Source of the DNA: Caulobacter sp. CCUG 60055
GTDB lineage: Bacteria > Pseudomonadota > Alphaproteobacteria > Caulobacterales > Caulobacteraceae
Assembly (NCBI RefSeq): GCF_022750545.1
Contig: NZ_PUIC01000005.1
Span: 335,581 to 399,580 of the forward strand
Length of the DNA: 64,000 nt
Direction: 5' to 3'
Positions 35,672 to 38,399 of the stretch are shown in pieces; the first letter of the stretch is position 1; each line of letters starts with the position of its first letter. The translations under genes and the position numbers were made by a program. The notes below the pieces were generated by a model. The model was not told the origin of the DNA. It was given only the letters and a program-made list of their open reading frames with translations, and ran no database searches.

Positions 35672-36736
35672 TCAGGCCGCGCGGTACCAGGCGACGCCGT
35701 CGGCGTCGGTCTCGGCCACGGCGGCGCCGCGCCCGATCAGGCAGTTGAGGTGAGCCAGGGCCTCGCCCGTGGCCATGCCCAAGAGGTCCGGGCCGATCTT
35801 GCGGGCGAACAGCGAGCCGAACACGTCCACCGCCCGCTTGGGCTCGGCCAGCGACTTGAGCAGGCGCTCCAGGCCGCGTTCGTGGCCGCGAGCCAGGTGG
35901 TCGAGGCGCGCGTGCAGACCACGGAACGGCTCGTTGTGGGCCGGCAGCACCAGGACGTCGTCGGGCACCTCGCGCTTGACCTTGGCCAACGAGTTCAGCC
36001 AGTCGGTCAAGGGATCGCCGTCCGGCTCGGTGGGGAACACCGAGACGTTGGACGAAATCTTGGGCAGCACCTGATCGCCCGAGATCAGCAGCTTGAGGTC
36101 CGGACAGTAGAGGCAGGCGTGCTCGGGCGAATGGCCCGAACCGACCACCACGCGCCAGTCGTGGGCCCCGATGCGCACCAGGTCGCCGTCCGACAGGCGG
36201 TGATAGCTGTCGGGCAGAGCGTAGAGCCCCTTGCCGAAGCCGCCGAAGCGGGCGCGGTAGTTCTCGATCGCCTCCTCGTCCCAGCCGGCGCGCTGATAGA
36301 AGCGCACGCCGTCCTCGGGCGCCTCGCGGCCGGTGTCGGCGGCCAGCATGCGGCAGGTGACGTATTCGAGCCGGCTGATCCACAGGCGGCAATCGAATTT
36401 GCGGGTGATCCACCCGGCCATGCCGATGTGGTCGGGGTGCATGTGGGTGACGAAGACGCGGCTGACCGGGCGGCCCTGCATCGGACCGGCGAAAGCCTGG
36501 CGCCAGGCCCCGGCGGTCTCGCGGGTCTGCACGCCGGTGTCGACCACAGCCCAGCCGTCGCCGTCCTCGACGGCCCACAGGTTGATGTGCGACAGCGCGA
36601 AGGGCAGCGGCATGCGCAGCCACAGGACGCCGGGCGCCACCTCTATGGTCTGGCCGGGCCCTGGAACGGTGTCGAACGGATAGACCAGCTGCGGCCGACG
36701 CTCGCCCGTTTCGCCGTCTTCAAGCCCGTCGCTCAC
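35672..36736 (-). CDS. MBL-fold metallo-hydrolase
   Basis: The 354-residue protein has the metallo-beta-lactamase fold: NLWAVEDGDGWAVVDTGVQT, the metal motif THMHPDHIGMAGW, VVVGSGHSPEHACLY and ISGDQVLPK. A C-terminal helical domain (about 270-354) resembles that of lactonase/thioesterase-like MBL proteins. GTG at 36736 is chosen because GGGAGA is about 8 bases upstream. Substrate unknown. It is divergent from the cysteine-repeat gene at 36911. Confidence 0.9.
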   Translation of the reverse strand: MSDGLEDGETGERRPQLVYPFDTVPGPGQTIEVAPGVLWLRMPLPFALSHINLWAVEDGDGWAVVDTGVQTRETAGAWRQAFAGPMQGRPVSRVFVTHMHPDHIGMAGWITRKFDCRLWISRLEYVTCRMLAADTGREAPEDGVRFYQRAGWDEEAIENYRARFGGFGKGLYALPDSYHRLSDGDLVRIGAHDWRVVVGSGHSPEHACLYCPDLKLLISGDQVLPKISSNVSVFPTEPDGDPLTDWLNSLAKVKREVPDDVLVLPAHNEPFRGLHARLDHLARGHERGLERLLKSLAEPKRAVDVFGSLFARKIGPDLLGMATGEALAHLNCLIGRGAAVAETDADGVAWYRAA

Positions 36737-36845
36737 GGCTGGTTCTCCCTGAGGCCGGCCGCCGTCCGTCCTCGGCCGCCCTGCCGGCATAAGGCGTCCT
36801 CGGCGAAAGACAAGGCCTCACGCGGCGGAACGGCGGCGGACGCGC

Positions 36846-36874
36846 TTGACCCCCGGGGCGGCGGGGCGTTTAAA
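36846..36874 (+). promoter_or_regulatory. Predicted promoter for the cysteine-repeat gene
   Basis: TTGACC (36846-36851), a 17-base GC-rich spacer and TTTAAA (36869-36874) match a housekeeping promoter. The -10 is centred on a 13-base palindrome GCGTTTAAAACGC that might serve as an operator. The transcript would begin about 30 bases before the start codon. Confidence 0.55.
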
Positions 36875-36910
36875 ACGCGCCACGGAAGGATTCACCCAGG
36901 AGAATTTCCC

Positions 36911-38251
36911 ATGAGGCCAATCGGAATCGGTCTTGCGGTCGCCTTGATCGCCGCGGCCGCCATTCCGGCGTCCCTGTCGCTGGCCGCCAAGTCGTCTGGC
37001 GGCGGCGTCTCGGACCAGCAGCACAAGCAGGGCATGGAGGCCGCGCCGGCGCTGATCCAGGCCGCCAGCCTGCCCTGCACCCTGTCGGACGCCCGCTTCA
37101 TCGGCCAGGGCAAGACCAAGGAAGGCGACAAGGAAGTCGTCAGCAAGTTCGTCGAAGTGGCCTGCTCGGAAGGCCCCGGCTACGTGTTCGCGGCCAAGGA
37201 CGGGGCCACGCCGGACGTCTATGACTGCCTGGCCACCTCGGGCAAGGACGCCAGCGGCAAGGACAACACCCTCAAGTGCGCCCTGCCCGCCAACGCCAAC
37301 CCCAGCGCCGGGCTGCAGTCGGGCATCACCAAGGCCGGCAACCCCTGCCAGGTGGCCGACGCCAAGTACATCGGCCAGAACAAGACCGCCGCCTTCTATG
37401 AGGCCAAGTGCTCCAGCGGCACCGGCGTCGTCGTGCTGCAGAACCTGCCCCGCACCGCCGCCGCGCCGGAAGTGCTGAGCTGCCTGGCCTGGGAAGGCAT
37501 GGGCAAGACCTGCGAGCTGACCACCCATGACGCCAACCTGGCCCCGGCCAAGGCCCTGGCCGGCAAGGCCAACGCCTCTTGCCAGGTCAAGGACCAGCGC
37601 TACGTCCTGACCAGCAAGGCCGGCGACGACTATTACGAGTTCTCCTGCGCCGACAATTCCGGCTTCATGGTCCAGGCCAACAACAAGGGCGAGTTCGTCA
37701 AGACCATCCCCTGCGCCCAGGCCGACTTCGTCAACGGCGGCTGCACCCTGACCAACGCCCGCCAGGCCCAGACCGCCCAGGCCTCGCTCTACACCAAGCT
37801 GGCCAAGAAGGCCGGCTATGACTGCGAGGTGTCCAAGTACGCTGTGTTCCCGTCGGCCCCGCCGCAAAGCGAGGCGGTCGAGCTGTCCTGCGGCAACCGG
37901 GCGGACGGCGCCGTCGGCATCTTCTACGCCGACCACGCCAGCATCTACGACTGCGCCATGTCGCAGCTCGAAGGCTACCGCTGCTCGTTCACCAAGCAGG
38001 ACGCGGCCTATCCCAAGCTGACCACCCAGCTGAAGGCCAAGGGCAAGAACACCTGCACGGTGTCCAACGCCCGCGCCATCGGCACCGCCGCCAACGGCGA
38101 AGGCTATCTGGAAGTGGCGTGCTCGGACGGCCTGCCCGGCTGGGTGCTGGTCTATCCGAAGGGCGCGGCCGACGCCAAGGAAGTGCTGGCCTGCAACCAG
38201 GCGTCCGGCATCGGCGGCGGCTGCAAGCTGCCCGGCAACACCAAGGGCTGA
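36911..38251 (+). CDS. Secreted five-repeat, four-cysteine protein of unknown function
   Basis: The 446-residue product has a signal peptide (through about residue 26) and five tandem repeats with exactly four cysteines each: Cys 56/85/106/123, 146/167/191/201, 224/246/268/278, 305/327/348/358 and 382/404/428/438. Within repeats 2-5 the spacings are about 22, 22 and 10 residues, with a shared pattern C-x-V-x-x-x-x-Y/A ... E-x-x-C ... C ... C-x-L/F. Short charged helices link the repeats. The even cysteine count suggests two disulfides per repeat in the periplasm or outside the cell. AGGAG precedes the ATG, a promoter lies at 36846 and a strong terminator at 38279, so it is a single-gene unit. 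I know no named domain for it. Confidence 0.85.
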   Translation: MRPIGIGLAVALIAAAAIPASLSLAAKSSGGGVSDQQHKQGMEAAPALIQAASLPCTLSDARFIGQGKTKEGDKEVVSKFVEVACSEGPGYVFAAKDGATPDVYDCLATSGKDASGKDNTLKCALPANANPSAGLQSGITKAGNPCQVADAKYIGQNKTAAFYEAKCSSGTGVVVLQNLPRTAAAPEVLSCLAWEGMGKTCELTTHDANLAPAKALAGKANASCQVKDQRYVLTSKAGDDYYEFSCADNSGFMVQANNKGEFVKTIPCAQADFVNGGCTLTNARQAQTAQASLYTKLAKKAGYDCEVSKYAVFPSAPPQSEAVELSCGNRADGAVGIFYADHASIYDCAMSQLEGYRCSFTKQDAAYPKLTTQLKAKGKNTCTVSNARAIGTAANGEGYLEVACSDGLPGWVLVYPKGAADAKEVLACNQASGIGGGCKLPGNTKG

Positions 38252-38278
38252 TCCGATCGGCCCCGACTGACCGACGAG

Positions 38279-38308
38279 GCCCCGCCGGAGCGATCCGGCG
38301 GGGCTTTT
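38279..38308 (+). terminator. Intrinsic terminator after the cysteine-repeat gene
   Basis: GCCCCGCCGGA, tetraloop GCGA, and TCCGGCGGGGC form a perfect 11-bp stem followed by TTTT. It lies 28 bases after the stop codon. Confidence 0.92.
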
Positions 38309-38399
38309 CGTCGGCGTCCCACCTTACCGCTAATTCACTTGCCCGAGGTCGCCGGGAGGGGCGTGCTGGACGGGTCGGGAGATCGAGGGGCGAGCGGCC

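Follow-up and report, generated by a model that had tools for sequence, protein, structure and literature searches.

The closest described systems are tandem proteins of the PepSY family (PF03413), whose usual setting is exported or extracytoplasmic. YpeB, which carries tandem PepSY domains at its C-terminus (PDB 5boi), has been proposed to keep the lytic enzyme SleB inactive (PMC13393411), and UipA is a tandem PepSY protein that binds uranium (PMC8963506). The protein analysed here is encoded in a window of 64,000 nucleotides from Caulobacter sp. CCUG 60055 (the whole stretch of DNA examined, to which all positions refer) and has a signal peptide that is kept in its orthologs, consistent with the usual PepSY setting. 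Like YpeB, it is predicted to consist of extracytoplasmic tandem small units, each of a helix and an antiparallel sheet. Unlike in YpeB, its repeats have four invariant cysteines each, a feature that is no hallmark of PepSY, and sequence similarity to PepSY is absent.

It was found that the repeats form an uncatalogued domain family that is core and exclusive to the Caulobacteraceae among the genomes searched and is probably disulfide-locked. A literature search returned nothing on point for this protein or the Caulobacter copy, and only other genes for PepSY in Caulobacter; the protein seems to belong to the core envelope of the Caulobacteraceae and to have escaped study. The protein occurs in nearly every Caulobacteraceae genome and has 20 fixed cysteines and a conserved promoter to itself, but neither the domain libraries searched nor the other bacteria sampled contain it. 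This combination of distribution and conservation strongly commends it as a candidate for an envelope function that defines the lineage. We tentatively propose that the domain family was born in the Caulobacteraceae ancestor and is needed for its envelope or cell cycle, with an unstudied core copy in Caulobacter. As Caulobacter is a classic and major model organism, the function would be testable by simple deletion.

Modules, fixed cysteines, distribution, promoter and predicted fold were each found by computation. The best explanation for them, to which we give a probability of about 45 %, is an oxidatively folded periplasmic binding scaffold of five disulfide-locked modules with its own transcription unit. 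The gene product would be a Sec-exported protein of 44 kDa without lipidation, built from five tandem modules, each a helix on a four-stranded antiparallel sheet in a cystatin-like arrangement, locked by two intramodule disulfides. Oxidative folding in the periplasm would most likely give a rigid modular rod, and this rod may bind proteins as a scaffold without enzymatic activity; it could hold or inhibit an envelope enzyme, for instance, as has been proposed for tandem PepSY proteins such as YpeB.

The gene lies on the forward strand at 36911–38251 (ATG at 36911, stop codon ending at 38251) and encodes 446 amino acids, in which 20 cysteines were read. Residues 1 to about 26 (36911–36988, forward strand; beginning MRP, with a hydrophobic core and an SLA/LAA site) form a predicted Sec signal peptide without a lipobox cysteine. 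A signal peptide was found in the full-length members and in homologs with a complete N-terminus, and reading the 446-residue protein revealed neither a lipobox nor a membrane anchor. The mature protein has a pI of 7.4 against a family median of 8.0 and is not acidic. In close pairs, dN/dS ranged from 0.07 to 0.45, indicating purifying selection on the gene. The reading frame is also open upstream, giving an 833-residue frame (35750–38251) that overlaps the opposite-strand metallo-beta-lactamase-fold gene; this extended frame was rejected as a longer protein and taken as a high-GC artefact.

The five repeats occupy, on the forward strand, 37013–37294 (repeat 1, residues 35–128; C56, C85, C106 and C123), 37295–37519 (repeat 2, residues 129–203; C146, C167, C191 and C201), 37520–37753 (repeat 3, residues 204–281; C224, C246, C268 and C278), 37754–37993 (repeat 4, the most diverged of the five, residues 282–361; C305, C327, C348 and C358) and 37994–38248 (repeat 5, residues 362–446; C382, C404, C428 and C438). 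The preliminary description had proposed five tandem repeats of four cysteines each, spaced by about 22/22/10 residues in repeats 2–5, and both proposals were upheld. When one profile per repeat position was built, hhalign gave probabilities of 87–99.4 % for all ten repeat pairs, and a one-repeat profile run against the whole 4.09-Mb genome hit exactly five places, all in this gene (E 1.7e-21 to 2.3e-15). The C1–C2/C2–C3/C3–C4 spacings were 29/21/17, 21/24/10, 22/22/10, 22/21/10 and 22/24/10 in repeats 1 to 5, so that repeats 2–5 fall within 21–22/21–24/10. With the per-position profiles, orthologous repeats of the same position scored about 94–103 bits against 5–45 for other positions, which suggests that the five-repeat array is old and that each position has kept its identity.

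Exactly 20 cysteines were counted in 68 of 70 orthologs and 21 in the remaining two, and an alignment of 28 sequences showed all 20 to be invariant or almost so. Judged from these sequences, the conservation of the cysteine count is far beyond chance. Every aligned repeat also has an invariant glutamate at the third position ahead of C2, in a motif like Y-E-V-A-C (E82, E164, E243, E324 and E401, on strand 2 of the model).

The preliminary description had also suggested that the gene has its own promoter and a very strong terminator and may therefore be well expressed. The claim that it has its own promoter was supported by a phylogenetic footprint: the element TTGACC, 17 nt, TTTAAA (36846–36874, forward strand) recurs in 53 of 68 upstream regions (window and orthologs) against a shuffle mean of 0.3, although these regions come from related loci and so represent a footprint rather than 53 independent events. 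The ortholog form is TTGACC (or TTGCCC), 16 to 18 nt (mostly 17) and a CTTATG/TTTAAG-type hexamer, with TTGACC-N17-CTTATG in many orthologs, and going by these motifs the promoter would be of a housekeeping type. A candidate ribosome-binding site, AGGAGA, lies at 36898–36903 (forward strand), and CCAGGAG recurs in most orthologs. Downstream, RNA folding placed a putative terminator hairpin at 38271–38314 (forward strand) with a 12-bp GC-rich stem and a 7-bp extension. As had been described, this hairpin is strong (−40.6 kcal/mol, z −6.4, with 0 of 200 shuffles equally stable), but it is followed by four U only. Generic sigma-70 promoter and terminator scans called neither the promoter nor the hairpin because their consensus rules are stricter.

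Two reverse-strand genes flank the repeat gene: a divergent metallo-beta-lactamase-fold hydrolase gene (PF00753, 35672–36790) and a convergent thiamine-pyrophosphate enzyme gene (PF02776/PF02775, 39722–41263), both outside the unit. These were detected in 59 and 48 of 75 loci respectively, and some of the loci without a detected metallo-beta-lactamase-fold neighbour end early at a contig edge. The divergent and convergent orientation of the flanking genes indicates that the repeat gene is a single-gene transcription unit; the conserved neighbours are metabolic, unrelated to it and point to no partner. An S41 peptidase gene (PF03572, 38400–39716) separates the repeat gene from the conserved gene for the thiamine-pyrophosphate enzyme. 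Because the 75 related loci all lack such a gene, it was rejected as a partner of the repeat protein and appears to be an insertion in this lineage.

To determine the distribution of the repeats, genomes were searched at the family, order, class and phylum levels. Repeats were present in 381 of 390 Caulobacteraceae genomes, in all 22 genera and in 309 of the 311 good genomes, defined by completeness of 90 % or more and contamination of 5 % or less; the two exceptions are assemblies of 210 and 590 contigs. The order-level search matched 51 of 249 genomes, every one from the Caulobacteraceae, leaving 0 of 198 among the other Caulobacterales. Outside the Caulobacteraceae, there were likewise no matches in the class sample (0/286) or the phylum sample (0/387), and the plasmid collection gave no match to the repeat protein. 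The preliminary assignment to the Caulobacterales is narrowed to the Caulobacteraceae, as none of the 198 other genomes of the order had the repeats. A contig search with the single protein as query gave zero matches; it worked with an eight-sequence alignment, and the 28-sequence alignment was too diverse for scanning. The named loci came from Caulobacter, Phenylobacterium and MAGs labelled Caulobacteraceae or with a higher rank. The protein is a Caulobacteraceae-specific signature protein, near-universal inside the family and absent from the genomes sampled outside it.

Near-universality within, and restriction to, a single family would also be expected of a structural part of the Caulobacteraceae envelope or surface, such as a periplasmic lattice, an outer-surface layer or a stalk-related structure, in which the disulfide rod self-associates and has no client. 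The repetitive, cysteine-rich protein, the conserved promoter and the lack of a partner gene at the locus are all consistent with such a role. However, five modules are only the usual form of the domain family, and both repeat number (1 to 5) and copy number differ by lineage, a poor fit to a lattice; the sequence also lacks a visible lipobox or membrane anchor. Several Caulobacteraceae genera make no stalk, which argues against a stalk-related function in particular. Of the two roles raised in the preliminary description, a disulfide-rich extracytoplasmic binder or a structural protein, the structural one seems rather doubtful, and the binding scaffold is preferred.

Searches for known domains, in which a confident match would have spoken against the preliminary description, agreed with its statement that no named domain fits, as no confident match was found in Pfam, NCBIfam, PHROGs or PDB sequences. 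For the 446-residue protein, Pfam gave 0 matches at E<=10, and NCBIfam, PHROGs and PDB sequences gave 0 matches each. Pfam searches with the protein, with 34 repeats and with 54 orthologs gave no match to PepSY, and there was no catalytic-domain match for the protein (Pfam, NCBIfam) or the repeats. Several weak candidates were set aside: PepSY_2 (PF13670) was dropped as a single sub-threshold match among 31 relatives, and PDB profile matches to Nore1 (E 0.12) and to viral spike proteins (E above 0.7) looked like chance.

The fold of the protein was predicted with AlphaFold2 from 54 sequences. The full-length model had a pLDDT of 88.9 and a pTM of 0.66, the latter leaving the arrangement of the modules relative to each other uncertain. 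In the model, each repeat consists of a helix and four antiparallel strands, mostly with an additional short helix, and one repeat folded alone gave the same order of helix and strands (pLDDT 77). In the first hairpin, C1, immediately ahead of strand 1, faces C2, with which strand 2 ends; C3 follows directly after strand 4, and C4 comes about 10 residues on (17 in repeat 1), past a short terminal helix. Equivalent cysteine places across repeats, set beforehand as the test of the modular description, were found in all five repeats. From the strand order of the model we infer that the disulfides would be C1–C2, joining strands 1 and 2, and C3–C4, linking the last part of strand 4 with the short terminal helix, both within the module. 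The genome also encodes a DsbB (E 1.4e-31), indicating that periplasmic disulfide formation is available.

Comparison with known structures gave weak scores (Z 4–6), and Z below 8 can reflect merely a common arrangement rather than kinship. Neither the full model nor one repeat strongly matched a solved fold, which does not exclude any solved fold, and the best Foldseek match of one repeat had E 0.2. The single-repeat structural list was headed by 5eql_A (Z 5.8), which, going by its title, is perhaps a cystatin-based binder. PepSY family members UipA (7ath) and YpmB (2gu3), extracytoplasmic proteins with a similar order of secondary structure, scored Z 4.8 each. Matches to alpha plus antiparallel-sheet units of BLIP-like and Bacteroides periplasmic proteins (4fr9, 3u1w, 3elg and 4dsd) included the BLIP-like protein 4fr9 at Z 3.9 against the single repeat; this group had Foldseek E values of 0.2 or worse for one repeat and no sequence link. 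The adhiron 9r5y_C, the N-terminal domains of DsbG (2h0g) and copper amine oxidase (2cwu), and NTF2 (1ask) scored Z 3.7–4.5, too low for kinship, and have unrelated functions and no sequence link to the repeat. We take the structural matches of the repeat (PepSY, BLIP-like, adhiron, DsbG, copper amine oxidase and NTF2-like) to share a cystatin-like helix on a curled antiparallel sheet. On the basis of the model, the repeat would be classed as such a cystatin-like arrangement, with kinship unsupported by the scores.

The top Foldseek rows of the full model were beta-propeller lectins and WD40 proteins, which have tandem four-stranded antiparallel blades; the repeat protein differs in having a helix between sheets. 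TM-scores were 0.12–0.21 (about 0.15) with an rmsd of mostly 15–19 Å, and by VIA the propeller matches reached Z 4–5, mostly over single blades. These rows were attributed to the tandem arrangement of four-stranded sheets and taken no further.

Many of the cystatin-like domains that the fold resembles, among them extracytoplasmic PepSY and BLIP-like ones, are binding modules; this resemblance supports the binding role, which is favoured by analogy of form. The repeat protein may work like a tandem PepSY or BLIP protein, and membership of either group is not supported by sequence. A more specific proposal is that it is a tandem PepSY/BLIP-type inhibitor of a protease or other enzyme, a true PepSY homolog diverged past sequence detection. 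The whole model is most similar to YpeB (Z 5.3, rmsd 2.5, 58 residues), the top 13 of the single-repeat list include UipA, YpmB and YpeB, a BLIP-like protein is also listed, and 10 of 54 orthologs gave weak matches to protease-inhibitor family I69 (best E 0.007). Against this, PepSY profile matches are absent, hhalign against 26 Caulobacterales PepSY domains gave a probability of 0.4 %, like reversed controls, and NTF2-like, copper-amine-oxidase and DsbG N-terminal domains score equally, with Z below 8 throughout. Homology to PepSY is therefore unlikely, and a binding scaffold of similar form is preferred. A ligand- or metal-binding periplasmic protein resembling UipA, with the invariant strand-2 glutamate of each repeat in the site, is improbable: the mature protein lacks an acidic character, a structural role may also account for the glutamate, and the conserved neighbours showed no genes for transporters or metals.

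Further homologs were gathered by a repeat-profile search of other Caulobacteraceae and had one repeat (L132, L212), two (L206, L207), three (L131, L134, L135, L208–L210, L213) or four, the last with 16 repeat cysteines rather than 20 (L027, L029 and L133, from genera g15 and g16). The repeat regions of homologs with 1, 2, 3, 4 and 5 repeats had about 4n cysteines; only 7 could be counted in the two-repeat copy L207, whose first repeat was incompletely aligned. This proportionality indicates that the repeat is a true module and argues for two closed disulfides per module. The series of 1 to 5 modules offers a natural case of growth and shrinkage in disulfide-locked repeat proteins. The best-matching three-repeat protein (L131) scored as repeats 1, 2 and 3 in order, other divergent repeats being less clearly assigned, and no fusion to a known domain was seen among the paralog copies. 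In some genomes of genus g22, which is probably Caulobacter, the contig with the five-repeat gene also carries a second, two-repeat member (L206, L207) about 21–30 kb away. One genus g3 genome has three consecutive three-repeat genes (L208), a local tandem amplification.
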